Positions 6,903 to 63,200 of a stretch of 64,000 nt of DNA are shown one piece after another. Under the pieces are notes generated by a model. That model did no database searches, had not been told where the DNA came from, and saw only the letters and a list, made by a program, of their open reading frames with translations. Location: the NCBI GenBank assembly GCA_021154885.1, contig JAJKHS010000143.1:124001-188000 (forward strand), given 5' to 3'. Each line of letters opens with the position of its first letter. Position 1 is the first letter of the stretch. The stretch comes from Thermoanaerobaculum sp. GTDB taxonomy: Bacteria > Acidobacteriota > Thermoanaerobaculia > Multivoradales > UBA5704. Made by a program: the position numbers and the translations under genes.

Positions 6903-7069
6903 CATACACGCTAACTTTGCTTAGGGTAGGGGCGGGTCTGGACGGGTGGGAGGGGGCGCGACCCGCCCTGCAACGGCGAGATCGACCTCCCCAGGGCGGG
7001 TCGAGCCCCCAACCTGCCCGCCCAGACCCGCCCCTACCCTAGGCAGCGAGGCCAAAGTTAGCGCCTATG
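6903..7069 (+). repeat. Long palindromic repeat R1, copy 1
   Basis: This is a 167-bp near-perfect palindrome. The outer arms pair CGCTAACTTTGC with GGCCAAAGTTAGCG and then TTAGGGTAGGGGCGGGTCTG with its complement; the inner arms GGGGGCGCGACCCGCCCTG and CAGGGCGGGTCGAGCCCCC also pair. Related copies occur at 46461 and 54835. It has no coding capacity; it looks like a MITE- or REP-like nonautonomous element and would form a very long hairpin if transcribed. Confidence 0.8.
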
Positions 7070-7150
7070 GTAGGCGCGCATCCTCCCAACCTGCGTAGCG
7101 TCTCTGGCAGACCCACCGGGCTTTATGGTAGAGTCCGGGCAGAACAAATT

Positions 7151-8086
7151 ATGGGTCAACACGATCTCAGTTATCGCCTTTTCTTCTCCCACCGGCACAT
7201 GACCCAGGATCTCCTGCAAGAGATCGTGGCCGAGCGATGGGTGGAGCGGATCGACTTCGACTCCGGCGAGTTGGCCGACCCTTCCTACGTTTCCGACAAG
7301 CACGAGAACCGCGAAAGCGACCTCGTCTGGAAGTTCCGGCGCCAGGATGGAGAAGAGCCGGTCTACGTGCTCCTGGAGTTCCAGTCGCGGCCCGATCCCT
7401 CCATGCCGGTCCGTTTCATGGGCTACGAGAGCCTCTTCTACCAGAAGCTGTTGGCCGACAAGCCCGTAGCCGCCTGGAGAAAGCTGCCGCCGGTCATCGC
7501 TGTCCTGGTCTACAATGGATGGGAGCCGTGGCACGTGGCGACGGACCTCGGTTCTTTGATCGGAGAACTGGACGTCTCGGCGGCGACCTACCGGCCGCAG
7601 TTGCGGTACCGGCTGGTGGACGAGTCGGCCTATCGGCGGGAGGATCTGGCATCGCTGAACAGTCCGGTGGCTGCCCTGTTCCTCATCGAGATGAGCCGCG
7701 ACGGGCAGGAGGTCTGCGCGAGCCTTCGTCGCCTATGGCAGACGATTCCGCCGGATGAGGTTTCCCTGCGGCGGGCTTTCGAGACCTGGCTGCGGAAGGT
7801 CATCCTGCCGCGTCTCGGAGTGTCTTGGGAGGAAACCGCAGAACTCACTATGGAGGAGGTGGAAACCATGCTGGCTGAAAGCATCGACCGTTGGAACCGT
7901 GAGCTCCTAGAAAAGGGCCGCCAGGAGGGGGAGGCCCAAGTAGTGCTTCGGTTACTCCGATTGAAGTTCGGTCCTCTGGAGCCGGAGACCGAGGAGCGGG
8001 TGCGATCTGCCGATACGGACCGCCTCCTGGAGTGGGGCGAGCGAGTTTTGACCGCCCAAAGTCTCCAGGACGTCTTCCGGGATTGA
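7151..8086 (+). CDS. Rpn-family nuclease (recombination-promoting nuclease/putative transposase)
   Basis: The 311-residue protein has an N-terminal PD-(D/E)XK domain of the Rpn type: Asp57 in ESDLVWK, then Glu76-x-Gln78 in VLLEFQS, followed by the conserved MPVRFMGYESLFYQ. The C-terminal 70 residues are a DUF4351-like module with one KGRQEG repeat and the signature SLQDVFRD. ATG 7151 is preferred because earlier starts fall in repeat R1. Rpn proteins are toxic DNases; in E. coli they are antagonised by a small protein translated from within the same gene and act against phage. Here the C-terminal module has its own ribosome site (see 7868) and is followed by further copies. Confidence 0.8.
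   Translation: MGQHDLSYRLFFSHRHMTQDLLQEIVAERWVERIDFDSGELADPSYVSDKHENRESDLVWKFRRQDGEEPVYVLLEFQSRPDPSMPVRFMGYESLFYQKLLADKPVAAWRKLPPVIAVLVYNGWEPWHVATDLGSLIGELDVSAATYRPQLRYRLVDESAYRREDLASLNSPVAALFLIEMSRDGQEVCASLRRLWQTIPPDEVSLRRAFETWLRKVILPRLGVSWEETAELTMEEVETMLAESIDRWNRELLEKGRQEGEAQVVLRLLRLKFGPLEPETEERVRSADTDRLLEWGERVLTAQSLQDVFRD
7868..8086 (+). CDS. Internal C-terminal product of Rpn gene (RpnS-like)
   Basis: Within the nuclease gene, AGGAGGTGG at 7854-7862 lies 5 nt before ATG 7868, which is in frame with the nuclease. This site would yield a 72-residue protein beginning MLAESIDRWNRELLEKGRQE. The same Shine-Dalgarno-ATG pair heads each stand-alone copy downstream, where it must be the start. 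By analogy with RpnS it could bind and inhibit the nuclease. Internal initiation is inferred from sequence only. Confidence 0.6.
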   Translation: MLAESIDRWNRELLEKGRQEGEAQVVLRLLRLKFGPLEPETEERVRSADTDRLLEWGERVLTAQSLQDVFRD

Positions 8087-26703: not shown

Positions 26704-27654
26704 CTACTTCCGCATCCGGAATGCAACACCATCCCAAAACTTGAACAACTGCGCGCCCGCCACCACCACGGTGAAACCGGCGGCGCGGGCCAGACGGTGG
26801 ACGTCCCGGCGGTCCCCCGTGAGGTCGTCGCGATAGGAGTAGTTGAAGAGCACAAAGTCGCCGCCGGGGCGCAGCACCCGGGCGGCCTCGTGGAAGTGGG
26901 CCTCGGCCAGTGCCGGACCTGCCTGAAAGATGTAGGGGAAGGAGTCCACGGCGAGGACGAGGTCCAGGCTCTCGGCGTCGAAGCCGGCCAGGTCGCGCCC
27001 CGAGCTGACGGCGAGGTGGACGTTGGGGAGGTCGGCGCAGCGCCTGCGGGCCGCCTCGATCATCCGCGGCGAGATGTCGATGCCGTGCGCCTCGGCCACC
27101 CTGGGAGCCAGGGCCGCCTGCATGCGGCCGATGCCGCAGCCGATCTCCAGGGTCCTGCGGTCCGCCCCGAGGATCTCCCAGCGTTCGAGGAGGTCCACGA
27201 CCTCCCGGGTCGCCCTGGCGAGGAGCTCCGGATCGCCCAGGGAGTAGGCGGCCACGCTCGCCGTCTCGTGGCGTTCCACGGAGCGGTCGAAGAAGGAGCG
27301 GCAGGCGGCGATCACGTCCTCCGCCGGCGAGGTCGAGACGTCAGGGTCCGGGTGCTCGCGCAGCATCGTCGCCACCCGTTCGCACCCCTCGCGATGATCC
27401 TGGAGGAGCCGCGCCACTTCGTGGAGGGACGGATGAAGCGGCCGTCCCCAATTCTGCGCGACCTCGGCAAGGACCTCGTCGACTTCGGAAGGCCACCCCA
27501 GAGCGAGAAGCAGGCGTGACAGGGTGATCACCGGCGAGATCTCGCCGGCGAGGAGGTCGAGGAGCACCTCCCGCGCAACGGGCGGATCGATCTCCCCCAG
27601 CCGCGCGTCGATCTCCTTCCGATCCAGGGCCTCACGACCCTTGTCCACTGCCAC
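26704..27654 (-). CDS. Class I SAM-dependent methyltransferase
   Basis: A 316-residue protein. Residues about 1-150 are a helical domain of unknown type (LDLLAGEISPVITLSRLLLA). Residues about 160-300 form a methyltransferase: motif I TLEIGCGIGRMQAAL, the acidic loop HGIDISPRMI, motif II/III LDLVLAVDSFPYI, and EAARVLRPGGDFVLFNYS. The substrate cannot be inferred. It starts directly beyond the 21-bp tandem array, which lies upstream of it. Confidence 0.8.
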   Translation of the reverse strand: MAVDKGREALDRKEIDARLGEIDPPVAREVLLDLLAGEISPVITLSRLLLALGWPSEVDEVLAEVAQNWGRPLHPSLHEVARLLQDHREGCERVATMLREHPDPDVSTSPAEDVIAACRSFFDRSVERHETASVAAYSLGDPELLARATREVVDLLERWEILGADRRTLEIGCGIGRMQAALAPRVAEAHGIDISPRMIEAARRRCADLPNVHLAVSSGRDLAGFDAESLDLVLAVDSFPYIFQAGPALAEAHFHEAARVLRPGGDFVLFNYSYRDDLTGDRRDVHRLARAAGFTVVVAGAQLFKFWDGVAFRMRK

Positions 27655-27677: not shown

Positions 27678-28184
27678 AGCTTCATTGTCCCCGATTTCAA
27701 GCTTGAGCCGGCTGGTCTTCCGCCTGCGGCGCTTCAAGTCGAGCTTGAGACGGGCTGAATCGAGCCCCACCAGGCTTCGCCAGGCTTGGACCGCCCTCCT
27801 CCAGGCTCGCCACGGGATGGCGCAACCTTACGCCGGGTCGAGCCAGGCTCGCGGCGCCTTCCGACAAGCTTCCCGCGGCACGGCCCAAGCTTGAAGGGCT
27901 CCGTGGAGACCTTGAGGAGCGCCACGCGAGCCTTGGAATGGGGAGAGACAGGCTTGCAACGGGCCGCGCCGAGCTTTGAGCGGGAGGCCGCGAGCTTGAA
28001 ACGCCTCGTCGCAATTTTCGGTGAGGGCATCCCAGGCTGGAGCGAGGATCGCCAAGCTTGGCGCGAGGCGCCGCAGGCTCGCGACGGCTCGCCTCAAGCT
28101 CGGCCGCTTCTTCGCAAACCTGACGAGAGTCGCCGCAACCTTGCCGCGAGGGATCTCAAGGCCGCTTCGCGCCGCCTTGAAGCT
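27678..28184. repeat. Degenerate 21-bp-period tandem array
   Basis: Hexamers of the type rGCTTG/rGCTCG/ACCTTG recur with a 21-bp period for about 500 bp. From 27783 through 28035 they fall at 27783, 27804, 27825, 27846, 27867, 27888, 27909, 27930, 27951, 27972, 27993, 28014 and 28035 without a slip; elsewhere the register shifts by 1-2 bp. The other 15 positions vary freely. Because 21 is seven codons, long frames stay open in several frames on both strands (for example 27786-28322 plus, heptads with Leu at position 4), so those frames are not evidence for a gene. The array starts right after the ptuB stop. Confidence 0.8.
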
Positions 28185-28909
28185 TCAGGCCCATGTGACG
28201 ATCTCCGAATGAGCTCGCAGAGCCTTGAGGCATTCCTCATCGACGAGGAGATCTGCCTCCGGTCCTGCGGCGATCCTGAGAAGAGCCGCGAAGACTCCCG
28301 CGAACGGATGGTTCCGGACTAACTTCTCGATCTCCTCCGCCTTCGTATCCTTTCCCGCCACCCTTAATTCGGCATAGCGGATCAGGAGCTGCTCGAGGCC
28401 TGTCCAAGCAAAAGCTCGCCCTTGGTCAGTGTAGTACGGTTGAGGCCGAAGACGTCAATCGAGGGATCTCCCTTGGGAGACCTGGGCTCGAACCGGCCGG
28501 TCGACGGAGAGAAGGAGAGATGATCCAGAGGCTCCTCCTCGCTCGGGTTCACCAGGAGCGGGGCGCCGGCTGCGTCGAGGGGGAACTGGTCGCGTTTGAA
28601 ATTGCTGTTGCACCGCGAGCAGGCGATCAGGTAGTTGAGCCAGTCGAAGGCTCGCTCCGGGTAGACCGACTTGGGCCAGAAGTGCTCGATGGCGGTGCCC
28701 TCGCTGTCCTCGCAATACATGCAGCGTTCGAGGCCGGAGGCCATCTTGCCCAGAGTCTCCCGGAGCTCTTGAAATGCTTTGTTGGACTGCTGGCGCCAGA
28801 GTCTCGCTGCCTCGGCTCGTGGATCAGGCGAGACAGCAACCCCGTCCGAGCGGTCGCGGAGAAAGGTGAGAGTCTCAGTGCTGAGATCCAGCCGCTTCAG
28901 GCGCTTCAT
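28185..28909 (-). pseudogene. ptuB: Septu HNH nuclease PtuB, frameshifted
   Basis: The first 160 or so residues read as an HNH nuclease of the PtuB type: CMYCEDSEGTAIEHFWPK (Cys-x2-Cys and the catalytic His region) and ACSRCNSNFKRD. The frame ends prematurely at 28382. In the alternative frame, from about 28420 to the stop at 28185, homology-like sequence continues (GRAFAWTGLEQLLIRYAELR, HPFAGVFAALLRIA). Restoring one G in the run at 28419-28421 joins the two into about 240 residues. Either the gene is inactivated, or this is a sequencing error or slippage site. The start overlaps the ptuA stop by 4 nt. Confidence 0.75.
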
Positions 28910-30231
28910 TCGTTGATCGCTAGCGTACGCAGCGCCTGCTCCATGTCCGCACTCAAAGTCTGAGGAAGGCGCGATCGGAGCTCCTTGAGCTCTTCCCGCT
29001 CCTTGTCGCTGACTTTTCCCGACTGCAGAAGGGCTTCCAATTGAGCGACGCGCTCGCGCAGCCGCTCGGATTCACCGGAGTAGGGGGTATCGAGGCCGAA
29101 GAGCTCCGTCAGGACTGCGTCGTCGGCACCGCCGTTGACCACCGTATTGTAGAGAGCTTCAGACACGTGCTCGGCGGAACGGTTCTCGCCTGGAGCCGGC
29201 AGGCGGATCAGCCCTCTCGGGTCGGCGGCCTGGCAGACGAAGGGGCTATGGGTGGTGACAATGAATTGGATGTTGGGGAAATGACGCTTCAGCCAGAAGC
29301 CGATCCCTTTCTGCCAGGAGACGTGAAGATGGAGGTCGACCTCATCGATTAAGACCACGCCCGAGTAGCCGATTTGTTGACAGGTACCAGAGGCCTCTAC
29401 TATCGTGTTTATATCCAGTAAATCGGCATGCCGGTCGAGTTGGCGCACGATATCCATGATGAGAGCGGCGGTGGTTCGGTATCCATCGCTCAATTCGGTC
29501 AGCGGTAGCCTTATCCCGCGTTGGCGTACCCATAAACCTTCAGAGTCTATGTTCTCGACAATGACATCATCTGGAAGAAGACCATCGTTAAGTAGAGAAA
29601 GGACGGTTTTCTCGAGATGGTCAGCCCCGAGCTTCTTCTCAAGCCGACGTAGGTAAATTTCGCGAAGCCAGCTCACGGATTCCACTAAGGAGGCGTCCTC
29701 ACGGAAGAGAGTAACGAGGCCTGCAACTCTTCTTGGGCCTGCCATCAGACGTTGCGCTTCGCTGGCATGTCCAGTGAGGCGGCGATAGGGGCCATAGCCA
29801 GCGATAAACCATCCGAAGGGATCTCCTGACCAGGGCCCTTCGTGGTGATCACGCTCCAACTCTGCGAATTCGTGGCCCATCACTCCAGTAAGGCGTGGCT
29901 CGGCCCCGTTTGGGGTTGATGCCCATCGCAAAGCAATCGTGCTGGAGGTGGTTAGATAGTCCGTGTCCTCTTCCGTCGGCTCAACGAGGAGCTCAGTCTC
30001 CGCAATATCCCCACCAAGGGAAACCCAATTGGCGAAGCTGGGTACTAGAGCCTTGGCCTCTGGAGGCCCTGCCAGGGAGAGCGCAATAGCCTTGAGCAGA
30101 GTCGACTTGCCGGCTCCATTCCGCCCTGCAAGGACTGTCCAGCCAGCCAAGCTCCCATCAGGCCGGCTGAAGTCCAGGTCCACCTCTCGGAAGCCCCGGA
30201 CGTTTTTGATCTTCACCCTTCGGACATGCAC
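28906..30231 (-). CDS. ptuA: Septu defence ATPase PtuA
   Basis: The 441-residue ABC/SMC-like ATPase has Walker A GRNGAGKS (residues 36-43), an ABC signature-like LTELSDGYRT, Walker B VVLIDEVDLHLH and the TTHSPF switch. The C-terminal 60 residues form a charged coiled coil (RLRERVAQLEALLQ, KEREELKELRSRL). Paired with a downstream TIGR02646-like HNH protein it forms the Septu anti-phage system, where PtuA assembles a ring that licenses PtuB nuclease. Because ptuB is frameshifted here, the pair may be inactive. It is divergent from queG across about 75 bp. Confidence 0.82.
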   Translation of the reverse strand: MHVRRVKIKNVRGFREVDLDFSRPDGSLAGWTVLAGRNGAGKSTLLKAIALSLAGPPEAKALVPSFANWVSLGGDIAETELLVEPTEEDTDYLTTSSTIALRWASTPNGAEPRLTGVMGHEFAELERDHHEGPWSGDPFGWFIAGYGPYRRLTGHASEAQRLMAGPRRVAGLVTLFREDASLVESVSWLREIYLRRLEKKLGADHLEKTVLSLLNDGLLPDDVIVENIDSEGLWVRQRGIRLPLTELSDGYRTTAALIMDIVRQLDRHADLLDINTIVEASGTCQQIGYSGVVLIDEVDLHLHVSWQKGIGFWLKRHFPNIQFIVTTHSPFVCQAADPRGLIRLPAPGENRSAEHVSEALYNTVVNGGADDAVLTELFGLDTPYSGESERLRERVAQLEALLQSGKVSDKEREELKELRSRLPQTLSADMEQALRTLAINE

Positions 30232-30308: not shown

Positions 30309-31460
30309 ATGGACCCCCGCGCCACCGCCGCCCTTCTCAAATCCTGGGCCCTGGAATCCGGGTTCGACCGCGCCGGGGTGGCGGAGCTCGGTCCGCTGGA
30401 CCATGGGGATGTGCTGGTGCGGTGGCTGGAGCGCGGGGACCAGGCGGGGATGGAGTACCTGGGCCGCCGGCTGGAGGCGCGGCTCGATCCCTGGCAGATC
30501 TTTCCGGGGGCGCGGAGCGTCGTCTGCATGGCCCTCCAGTATCACCCTCTGTATGGAGAGGATGGGGAGCGGCAGCCGGAGCCCCGGGGGGACCTCTGGC
30601 GGCGGGTGGCCCGCTATGCCCGCGGGCAGGACTATCACGAGGTGATGGGCGAGCGGCTGCGCGTCCTGGAGGCCCGGGTCCGCGAGGCGTTCCCCGCCTG
30701 CGAGACCCGGTGTTACGTGGACACCGGCCCGGTGTTGGAGAGGGAGCTCGCGGCGCGGGCCGGCCTGGGGGCAGTGGGCAAGAACACGATGCTCCTCCAT
30801 CCGGAGGGCGGCTCGTGGTTCCTCCTCGGCGAGCTGTTCCTCTCCTTGGACCTGGCACCGGATCAGCCGCTCGCGGACCTCTGCGGGAGTTGTACTCTCT
30901 GCCTCGACGCCTGCCCCACGGGGGCGCTCCCCGAGCCCTACCGCCTGGACAGCAACCGGTGCATCTCCTACTGGACGATCGAGCACCGCGGGCCGCTCCC
31001 GCCCGCGGCGCGGCGGATGGTGGGGGGATGGGTCTTCGGCTGCGACGTCTGCCAGGAGGTCTGTCCCTGGAACGCGGCGCCGGCCGGGGCGGTCCACCCG
31101 GAGATGGAGCTACCGCAAGAGCGCGGCGAGCTCACCCTGGAGCGGCTCCTGCGCCTCCCACGCGAGGAGTACGTCGAACGTTTCCGGGGGAGCCCCATGA
31201 AGCGGGCGAAGCTCGCGGGTCTGCAAAGGAACGCCGCGGTGGCGATGGGGAACCGGCTGGAGTCGCGCCACGTGGGGCCGCTCGCCGCGGCGCTGCGGGA
31301 GGGGGAGCCCCTGGTGCGCGTTCACGCCGCCTGGGCGCTGGGACGGATCGGGGGGACGGAGGCGTGGCGGTTTCTGGAGGAGGCGTTGGCAGAAGAAGAG
31401 GATGGGGGGGTGCGGGCCGAGATCGAGTCGTCGCTCGGGGCCTCGCGCCCCCCTGTCTGA
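30309..31460 (+). CDS. queG: Epoxyqueuosine reductase
   Basis: This 383-residue cobalamin/iron-sulfur enzyme performs the last step of queuosine synthesis in tRNA. Two 4Fe-4S sites are visible: CGSCTLCLDACPTGA, and CDVCQEVCPWN with a preceding Cys in NRCISYWTIEHRG. The N-terminal catalytic segment has YHPLYGED and ARYARGQDYHEVM, and a GAVGKNTMLLHP stretch with the conserved catalytic Asp upstream (YVDTGPVLERE). HEAT-like repeats close the protein (VHAAWALGRIGG). ATG 30309 gives a normal length. Confidence 0.94.
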   Translation: MDPRATAALLKSWALESGFDRAGVAELGPLDHGDVLVRWLERGDQAGMEYLGRRLEARLDPWQIFPGARSVVCMALQYHPLYGEDGERQPEPRGDLWRRVARYARGQDYHEVMGERLRVLEARVREAFPACETRCYVDTGPVLERELAARAGLGAVGKNTMLLHPEGGSWFLLGELFLSLDLAPDQPLADLCGSCTLCLDACPTGALPEPYRLDSNRCISYWTIEHRGPLPPAARRMVGGWVFGCDVCQEVCPWNAAPAGAVHPEMELPQERGELTLERLLRLPREEYVERFRGSPMKRAKLAGLQRNAAVAMGNRLESRHVGPLAAALREGEPLVRVHAAWALGRIGGTEAWRFLEEALAEEEDGGVRAEIESSLGASRPPV

Positions 31461-54541: not shown

Positions 54542-54588
54542 TCGCCACAAGGCGATGACCCGCGCGAGGCGCGCTGAGTCGCCCCCAC

Positions 54589-54828
54589 TCGGGAGGACCT
54601 CCCTCACGAGTTGGTACAGGGCCCGCCCCTCTCGGGAGGAGCTCTCCCCCGAGCAGGTACGGGCCTCTCCCCACCCGGGAGGAGCTCCAAACGGGCGGGT
54701 ACGGGCCTCTCCCCGCTCGGGAGGGAGATCCAAACGAACGGGTACGGGCTCTCCCCGCTCGGAGGGAGCTCCGTACGAGCGGGTACGGGCCTCTCCCCAC
54801 TGAGGAAACTTCCCGGACGAGTGGGGGA
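54589..54828. repeat. Minisatellite of about 42 bp
   Basis: About five and a half direct copies with 41-43-bp spacing, each containing CGGGAGGAGCTCC-like and GCGGGTACGGGCCTCTCCCC segments. Because 42 bp is 14 codons, several frames stay open with 14-residue periodicity (RAGTGLSPLG), but the spacing of 41-43 would shift any frame, so coding is unlikely. It lies between the broken HEPN gene and repeat R1 copy 3. Confidence 0.7.
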
Positions 54829-60249: not shown

Positions 60250-63200
60250 TCAATCGCATTTCTCAGGTCCGGGCAACGCCTCGCAGGTCTTCCGGTAGGG
60301 CTTGCCGGCGCCAATATAGTTTCGCCATTCGTCACAGGTCAGATTTCGGTTGGCTCTGCGGCAAGCCTCAGCTCTGAGGACGTCCAAGTCCAAGGCATCA
60401 CCCAAGTCCCACAGAATGACGGTGTGGTTCTCGCTCGCCAAGGCCAGTCGTTTCCCGTCCGGGCTGAAGGCGACGCTGAAAACCCTACCTTTGTCTCCCG
60501 CCAGCGTGGCCAGCGGCTTGCGGCTATTCATGTCCCACAGGATGGCGGTCCCGTCCCAACTCGCCGAAGCCAGCCGTTTCCCGTCCGGACTGAAGGCCAC
60601 GCTCTGCACCAAACCCTTGTGATCCCGCAATGTGGCCAGCGGCTTGCGGCTGTCCACGTCCCACAGGATCACGGTCTTGTCAAAGCTCGCCGAGGCCAGC
60701 CGCTTCCCGTCCGGGCTGAAGGCAACGCTTATAACCCCGTCCTTGTGTCCCACCAGCGTGGCCAGCGGCTTGCGGCTGCCCACATCCCACAGGATCACAG
60801 TATTGATCTTGTCCCGGCCCGTTGAGGCCAGCCGCTTCCCGTCCGGACTGAAGGCGACGTCTTGGACCCTTGCCCCGTGCCCCTCCAGCGTGGCAAGTGG
60901 CCTGCCGCTGTCCAGATCCCACAGAATCACGGTCCAGTCCTCGCTCGCCGAAGCCAGCCGTCTCCCGTCTGGGATGAAGGCCACGCCAAGGACCGGTGCC
61001 TTGTGCCCTTCCAGCGTGGCCAGTGGTTGCCGGCTATTCATGTCCCACAAAATCAGGGTCCCGGCGTCGCCTGCCGAAGCCAGACGCTTCCCGTCCGGGC
61101 TGAAGGCGACGGCCAAGACCCGGCCGTTGTGCCCCTCCAGCGTGACCAGCGGCCTGCGGCTGTCTACGTCCCACAGGATCACGGTCCCGTCCCGGCTCGC
61201 CGAGGCCAGCCGTTTCCCGTCCGGGCTGAAGGCAACGCTGCAGACCACGCTCTGATGCCTCTCCAGAATGGCCAGCGGCTTGAGGCTGTCCAAATCCCAC
61301 AGGATCACGGTCTGGTCCACACTCGCCGCGGCCAGCCGCTTCCCGTCCGGGCTGAAGGCGACGTCAAAGATCGCGCCCTTGTGCTCTAGAGTGGCCAACG
61401 GTTTGCGGCTGTCCACGTCCCACAGGATTACTTCGTCACTCGCGGAGGCCAGCCGCTTGCCGTCAGGGCTGAAGGCGACGCTATTGACCCAATCCTTGTG
61501 CCCCTCCAGCCGAGCCAGCGGCTTGCGGCTGTCCACGTCCCACAGGATCACGGTCTTGTCCCGACTCGCTGAGGCCAGCCGCTTGCCGTCAGGGCTGAAG
61601 GCCACACTATAGACCTCGTCCTTGTGCCCCTTCAGCGTAGCCAGCGGCTTGCGGCTGTCCACGTCCCACAGGATCACGGTCTTGTCCAGACTCGCCGAGG
61701 CCAGCCGCTTGCCGTCCGGGCTGAAGGCCACGCTATAGACCTCGTCCTTGTGCCCCTTCAGCGTGGCCAGCGGCTTGCGGCTGTCCACGTCCCACAGGAT
61801 CACCGTATCGTCCGCACTCGCCGAGGCCAGCCGCTTGCCGTCTGGGCTGAAGGCGACGCCATAGACCGCGTCTGTGTGCCCCGGCAGAAACGCAGATAGA
61901 TGTGGGTGGCTCACGAAGCGCCGCAGCAACCCAGCCGACGCCTCGAGTGTCGGAGCGGCCCGAACGGTTTCCAGGTTGAGCAGAAGGGATAGGTCGTATT
62001 TGACATCCTGAACCCGATCTGCGTTAGCCATCAATTGCGTGATCTCAGCCTCTTTCAGCAACTTGGTGGCTTTCCACGTGGACCACCCGGCAAGCCCTGC
62101 GAGAACGATCACGACGAGCGCTCCTGCCAGCACGAGCGCCGCATTGCGCCGGTTGCGCCGCTGCTGCGCGAGGGCCGCCTCTTCGGCCTCGCGGGCGCGG
62201 CGGTTGTCGCGGCTCTCCTTAACCACGCGGGTCAGCACGTCGTGGGTCAGCTCCAGCCGGCGCACGCTCTGCCGCTCGTCCACCCGCAGCAGGCGGCTGC
62301 GGATCAGCGCGTCGAGCGCCTCGGAGGTGACGCCGGGCAGGGCCAGCGCGTCCTCCAGGGCGTGGCTGTCGCGATAGCCGCGCTCGGTGATGAGCTCGTC
62401 TTCGACGAACGTCCGCACGGCTGGATCGAGGCCGGCCATGCCGCGCTCGTAGAAGCCCGAGAGGATCTCGCGATCGGCGCCCTCCAGCAGCGCGGGTGTG
62501 ATGCGGTCTAAGGGTGGCTCCGCCTGCTGGCGCTTGTGGTTCAGCTCGCTGCACACCACGCTGAGCAGCGCCGGATCGATTTCGATCCTGGGGGAAATCG
62601 CACGGATCGACGAATCGTTTTTCCAGGCGAGCCTGATGATCCGCAGCGCGACGTCGTCGTCGACCAGCGCTCCGCCCGCGCGGGTGATCACTTCGTAGGC
62701 TTGGTCGCCGCTCATCAGAAGCAGGCGAAAGCGGTTGTACATGAGGGAGGGCATCTGCCCCTTGAGCCCCTCCATCTCGGCTAAGAAATCTTCACGGAAG
62801 CTCAGCACCAGCTTGACCGTCGAGCGCTTGAAGTCGAAGCCTCTCGCCGCCGTGGAATCGGCTTCCAGCGCCTGCTGGACCGCGTCAGGCGGCCGGTTCT
62901 CCGCCAGGTCGCCCAACTCGGCGAGGAAGGCCGCCGACCGCGACCGGGCCGCCGTGGTCTCCTGGCCGGAGGTGAAGATCTCCTCGAATTGATCGAAGAC
63001 GATCACGGGCGTCACCGGGCGGTTTTTCGCGCTCCAGAATTCCGCGTCGCGCCGGTGGAAGAACGACCACAGGCTCTCCTCCTGGGTGGGCTGGGAAGCT
63101 TGGACCCGCTCGGCCTCGCACGCCGCCTGCAGCCCGCGAAAGACCTGCTCGCGCAGCGGCGGAGCCCCTTCGGCATGGTCGAGGCGCACGTAGACCGGCA

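Follow-up and report, generated by a model that had tools for sequence, protein, structure and literature searches.

Phased arrays of degenerate palindromes in Thermoanaerobaculum sp.: candidate binding platforms near defence genes

Tandem, helically phased sites for dimeric proteins, on which large nucleoprotein complexes form, are known from partition sites and iterons (parS clusters, sopC, parC), and cyanobacteria carry short tandemly repeated repetitive sequences (STRR), which are intergenic tandem repeats with directional heptamer units. Phased tandem sites for a dimeric DNA-binding protein also make up the heptad arrays of pSM19035 (PMC9499535). Repetitive extragenic palindromes (REPs) are characterized as palindromes of 20-40 bp tagged GTAG or CGTC (PMC3733652). 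Here we describe an array of degenerate palindromes in a 64,000-nucleotide stretch of Thermoanaerobaculum sp. (contig JAJKHS010000143.1, positions 124,001 to 188,000; referred to as the window), together with further arrays of the same architecture in this genome and its relatives. A limited, open-access literature search returned no described equivalent. An array of binding sites, one of the possibilities raised in the initial annotation of this DNA, is the reading that fits best: the units show dyad symmetry, are set two helical turns apart, do not depend on one another and, in a related family, are protected in their cores. On these grounds the arrays may be multivalent platforms on which symmetric DNA-binding dimers occupy one helix face, an interpretation to which we give an even chance of being correct.

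The array in the window and its unit

The array takes up the interval that separates the start of a methyltransferase gene from the end of ptuB.

27698..28190 (end approximate), no strand: phased palindrome array of family A, about 22-26 degenerate units CGtnnCAAGCTTGnnaCG
27783..28035, no strand: best-phased stretch, 13 successive cores in exact 21-bp steps

Between 27678 and 28190, identity at a lag of 21 bp amounts to 0.476, compared with 0.276 +/- 0.020 in 2000 dinucleotide-preserving shuffles, the highest of which reached 0.343; the periodicity (z = 9.8) is thus not reproduced by the shuffled control. The thirteen cores spaced by 21 bp from 27783 to 28035, on which the initial annotation was based, are present exactly as claimed, and its half-kilobase array is real. 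Thirteen positions proved too few: with a position-specific decoder, 22-26 units can be traced between 27698 and about 28190. The rhythm described as strict is exact in the 13-core stretch, whereas the whole array contains occasional 20-bp steps (3 of 21 or 4 of 25, depending on the fit). Similarly, the core rGCTTG does recur, but the conserved motif is wider and strand-symmetric: when six family A arrays of this genome are decoded jointly, the unit consensus is CGtnnCAAGCTTGnnaCG. The six-array profile correlates with its own reverse complement at r = 0.98 (0.81 for the window array alone), and no correlation is seen at offsets beside the best dyad. Since the profile equals its own reverse complement, the conserved unit is a palindrome that recurs every two helical turns, and the array is directionless.

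The units behave independently of their neighbours. Complementarity between neighbouring family A units is 0.448, compared with 0.461 for units of different arrays; the self-complementarity of a unit (0.458) does not exceed its complementarity to other units, and neighbours resemble each other directly only a little more than that (0.478 vs 0.461). No covariation was detected within units. In family B, described below, general similarity is slightly elevated at distances 1-2, but neighbouring units gave no further sign of pairing. This independence in both pairing and similarity argues against hairpins, whether in RNA or DNA, and against recent tandem duplication; it fits separate sites for a symmetric protein.

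Array families and the constraint on their cores

In the following, G000 is the window genome, G001 and G002 belong to the same genus and G003 is a further relative. A search of G000 with three spaced cores located five further family A arrays, on C23, C80, C81 and C106 and, in a shorter form, on C131, so that the additional 21-bp arrays with the same core, which the initial annotation had named as potential support, do exist. BLAST with the array as a DNA query returned almost no matches, because only the core is common between arrays. Family B (core AACAWTGTT) comprises at least 10 arrays of 7-10 units in G000, G001 and G002, with a correlation of r = 0.98 between its profile and the reverse complement; none of the other 146 genomes of the class contains the pattern, and its reversed control gave zero matches.

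Arrays with different cores were found in G001, G002 and G003 by an order-wide search of 72 genomes with a sequence-only covariance-type model of family A, followed by inspection. Beyond the family, the model gave weak matches (L062, L064, L067-L071) that we do not count as arrays of this kind, and core matches in viral contigs (L137, L138, L144, L146) turned out on inspection to be due to chance or to ordinary 21-bp repeats with near-identical units. When about 400 kb of G000 and about 316 kb of G003 were scanned de novo by lag, this revealed a family with the core GTCTRYAGAY (mean spacing 20.5 bp; family C) as well as CGCCGG-type, GAACC-type, TGCACCC-type and TGCGCC-type families; family C has at least 8 arrays in G000 and none in G001-G003. 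About 126 kb scanned in G001 and G002 yielded a single further array that was clear (L182, 20 bp), together with a short repeat of near-identical 20-bp units (L185), and no arrays of this kind were present in about 335 kb plus 65 kb scanned from other families of the order. In total there are at least 24 arrays, roughly one per 100 kb sampled, all with a spacing of 20-21 bp. The dyad symmetry of the fitted arrays lies mostly between 0.55 and 0.94, whereas six 21-bp periodicities taken as controls from coding and low-complexity DNA score 0.14-0.49; the near-identical arrays L058, L060, L061 and L073 reach 0.29-0.49.

Two other repeats were noted during this survey. A second degenerate tandem array lies at 54583-54801 of the window, with a period of 42-43 bp (about 2 x 21) and a dyad symmetry of 0.76 when folded at 21 bp, and is possibly a further array family. 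A 10-bp repeat, TCTACTCGGT/TCTACACCGT, occupies a contig end (L157 1-190) in G007, from another family of the order.

Comparison of related family B arrays showed that their cores change less than their spacers. In the orthologous array, 3 of 72 core positions have changed vs 25 of 88 spacer positions (p = 3e-5), the flanking methyltransferase gene being 92.7% identical, and in paralogous arrays within G002 the corresponding counts are 4/72 and 32/88 (p = 1e-6). This protection in orthologues and paralogues supports a function for family B; its variants in G000 show at most weak core protection. A simulation of core decay was set aside since its null was unfair, changes being added on top of already diverged copies.

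Flanking genes and the defence neighbourhood

The genes surrounding the window array are the following.

26704..27654, minus strand: methyltransferase gene, starting beside the array and anchoring the orthologous locus (68% amino acid identity to the G002 orthologue)
28185..28361, minus strand: C-terminal part of ptuB, read in a different frame, with its stop abutting the array
28382..28909, minus strand: main part of ptuB (HNH nuclease of a Septu-like pair; PADLOC PtuB, E = 1e-59)
28906..30231, minus strand: ptuA (AAA ATPase of the Septu-like pair; PADLOC PtuA, E = 5e-155)
30309..31460, plus strand: queG-like gene (family name from sequence motifs alone)

The PADLOC matches bear out that the array abuts the ptuB gene of a defence pair; the HNH match of the ptuB product is under the curated cut-off. 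The product of 28185..28361 aligns with the C-terminus of the intact G002 PtuB (56% over 57 aa), which indicates that the window ptuB (28185-28909) is frameshifted or misassembled. In both G001 and G002 an array precedes the same methyltransferase gene, with 8 units, the core AACAWTGTT and a period of exactly 20 bp: the core is swapped, family B standing in for family A, and the architecture is the same. The G002 site has a ptuB that is 77% and 56% identical to the window gene over two segments, about as similar as the methyltransferase (68%), which points to vertical descent of ptuB. The G001 site is without ptuAB, most simply through loss, and there the queG-like gene adjoins the array. Since an orthologous array occurs there without ptuAB, the window array does not belong to the Septu system; the remaining family A arrays have neighbours other than ptuAB.

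Many arrays lie near families that resemble toxin-antitoxin systems (MazE-type, DUF2442/DUF4160, PIN, DUF433/DUF5615, HTH+Gp49, DUF3368 and others). For a matched comparison (E <= 1e-25), 95 larger proteins in the vicinity of 37 arrays were set against 95 from around random intergenic spots; 67 PADLOC families were matched by the array set and 5 by the control set. Among the matches listed for the array set are PtuA, HEC-06/Orf5, SoFic, a type I methyltransferase and HEC-01A, the names being family resemblances and the SoFic and methyltransferase matches putative; further matches from an individual search are a Gabija-like helicase and a TIR effector, which lies barely beyond the cut-off. The control families either occur in the array set as well (RtcR-type activators) or are cysteine-desulfurase look-alikes (SspA, DndA). 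PIN domains alone are not significantly enriched (2 observed vs 0.81 expected). Judged from these family matches, the enrichment of array neighbourhoods in defence proteins looks real, and what the initial annotation had suggested checking, namely whether arrays occur near other defence genes, holds as a general trend; its cause may be a hotspot, a shared tolerance of intergenic DNA or a function.

Two further observations concern neighbouring genes. In both G000 and G002 a gas vesicle gene cluster is immediately followed by a family B array (L043, L044), with an HTH/Gp49 toxin-antitoxin pair on the opposite side of the array in G000. At 60402-61882 of the window, about 12 copies of a 126-bp repeat on the minus strand probably encode a WD40-type repeat protein.

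Interpretation and comparison with described repeats

If the arrays are platforms for symmetric dimers, copies of a sequence-specific dimeric protein would line up along one helix face of each array and bind cooperatively, and the resulting local nucleoprotein filament could silence, insulate or regulate the flanking genes. Each array family would have its own protein or protein variant, and the arrays would spread as intact units to new intergenic sites, often in or beside defence and toxin-antitoxin islands, with a fast turnover of cores during this whole-array spread. A more far-reaching proposal, which we put forward tentatively and hold to be rather doubtful, is that phased palindrome arrays, mobile as wholes and evolving fast, represent a new class of chromosomal element that is bound by diverse, array-specific proteins of one family and marks, silences or insulates defence islands, with protein and core co-evolving; under such co-evolution orthologous sites would keep the architecture and swap the motif. 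Were the arrays indeed binding platforms, a group of soil bacteria would have evolved many parallel sets of long helix-phased operators with a motif that changes between sister species, resembling eukaryotic satellite DNA and its binding proteins. Their frequent position by defence and toxin-antitoxin genes would then give a testable handle on silencing or insulation of such islands or on their targeting by new insertions.

Several points weigh against a role as binding platforms. No binding protein was found. The family A paralogues L011 and L012 have diverged alike in cores (26/112) and spacers (41/180); given this lack of excess constraint on CAAGCTTG-family cores, family A may be partly relic, and solely its architecture suggests a function. 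Moreover, a few young arrays of near-identical repeats in G003 and G002 are weakly symmetric (L058 0.29, L073 0.30, L060 0.49), which suits an origin by repeat expansion, and about 24 sites per array far exceed the need of an ordinary operator.

The strongest rival, in our estimation possible and on balance unlikely, is a selfish or mobile non-coding repeat without host function, in which non-autonomous arrays are moved by a transposase-like activity that recognizes the palindromic units, and families rise and decay. Indeed, arrays within one genome are homologous as wholes and often inverted, with a spacer identity of 0.77 over 14 units for L011/L012 and 0.85 over 9 units for L041/L042, and in families A and C the similarity stops at or near the array ends, with no inverted repeats outside the array. 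The confinement of the family C arrays to one of four relatives and the unprotected cores of the family A paralogues agree with such an origin, as does the location of some G000 family B arrays within a larger element that carries inverted repeats about 133 bp long (two copies); one such element follows mutS in G000 and not in the relatives. Movement without function would leave unexplained why family B cores are protected in orthologous and paralogous arrays, and why the two-turn spacing is held across the whole array and not just at its ends. In addition, no target-site duplication could be seen flanking two family B elements, and no associated transposase was found, Y1_Tnp occurring once among 78 array neighbours and once among 67 control proteins. 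Even if the arrays were selfish, it would be unusual for an array made up purely of binding sites to move as a whole without any other element sequence.

Around family B arrays we also observed a repeated element of about 760 bp (L086 8783-9545; L087; L041 about 6918-7520), whose 133-bp inverted repeats carry a boxA-like TTCTTTGACAATTGAG, strong hairpins and promoter-like boxes, and which might represent two divergently oriented genes for small RNAs. A short open frame, MHTxKEKALRDxLAxIE...PPET..., lies just before the family B array at L041 about 7170-7310 and in its copies; it is intact in two of these (C16, C100) and broken in the remainder.

An ordinary degenerate minisatellite, that is a 21-bp tandem repeat from an old expansion followed by drift, appears quite improbable. 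Near-identical 20-21-bp repeats do exist in the relatives (L058, L060, L073), but drift would not be expected to spare the cores while the spacers vary or to give a consensus identical with its reverse complement, and families with unrelated cores would not all be expected at 20-21 bp and mostly dyad-symmetric. Neither conservation over the whole length of the unit nor a markedly greater likeness within arrays was found, family A units being hardly more alike within than between arrays, in agreement with the initial view that this is not a normal minisatellite.

Less credible again is a transcribed array acting as RNA, through hairpins or as a self-complementary, sticky RNA. The arrays fold better than shuffled sequences (z -2.8 to -7.4), which palindromy alone explains, and sigma70-like promoter sequences adjoin the array in the larger repeated family B element. 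Neighbouring units, however, lack compensatory pairing, each array tends to have its own predicted structure, neither strand is preferred by the consensus, and at no array does an Rfam family attain its gathering score; RNA-hairpin and cruciform readings were rejected on the covariation test. Rfam matches to animal and plant microRNAs in L086/L087 fall below the gathering scores and were discarded as chance matches to palindromes. Separately, Acido-Lenti-1 RNA was observed above the gathering score at L042 6323-6367, L103 18901-18945 and L044 1859-1905.

A repeat protein with heptads, also raised in the initial annotation, can be dismissed almost entirely: 21 bp do equal seven codons and open frames overlap the array, but it is refuted by 20-bp steps that shift the reading frame, stop codons in each of the six frames across the array, strand symmetry and a sister family with a period of exactly 20 bp, and the overlapping frame has no PADLOC match.

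Among described repeats, clustered regularly interspaced short palindromic repeats (CRISPR) likewise alternate a palindromic repeat with an unconserved spacer. The present period of 20-21 bp differs from about 60-70 in CRISPR, and the repeats are very degenerate, symmetric on both strands and stable in unit order between two sister species; a CRISPR array was rejected because its near-identical repeats of about 23-50 bp with unique spacers of similar length are not found, the cores being degenerate. With the STRR our arrays share the intergenic tandem arrangement and a period related to 7 bp, whereas their units are dyad-symmetric and two turns apart. Miniature inverted-repeat transposable elements (MITEs) resemble them as short non-coding copies that spread as units, some family B copies having inverted repeats; families A and C differ in consisting of the array alone, with no recognized target-site duplication. 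Like REPs and the bacterial interspersed mosaic elements (BIMEs), the arrays are dispersed, palindromic, intergenic and species-specific, but their units are dyads of 8-16 bp in strictly spaced arrays of 7-30, and the GTAG or CGTC tag is absent from the family A and B unit consensus. The tandem, dyad-symmetric sites in helical phase that characterize partition sites and iterons are present here as well. No ParA/ParB, RHH centromere or Rep gene lies beside the arrays among the Pfam matches listed, and the present arrays differ from partition sites and iterons in being dispersed by the dozen on the chromosome in several unrelated core families, with far more degenerate cores and copying of whole arrays.
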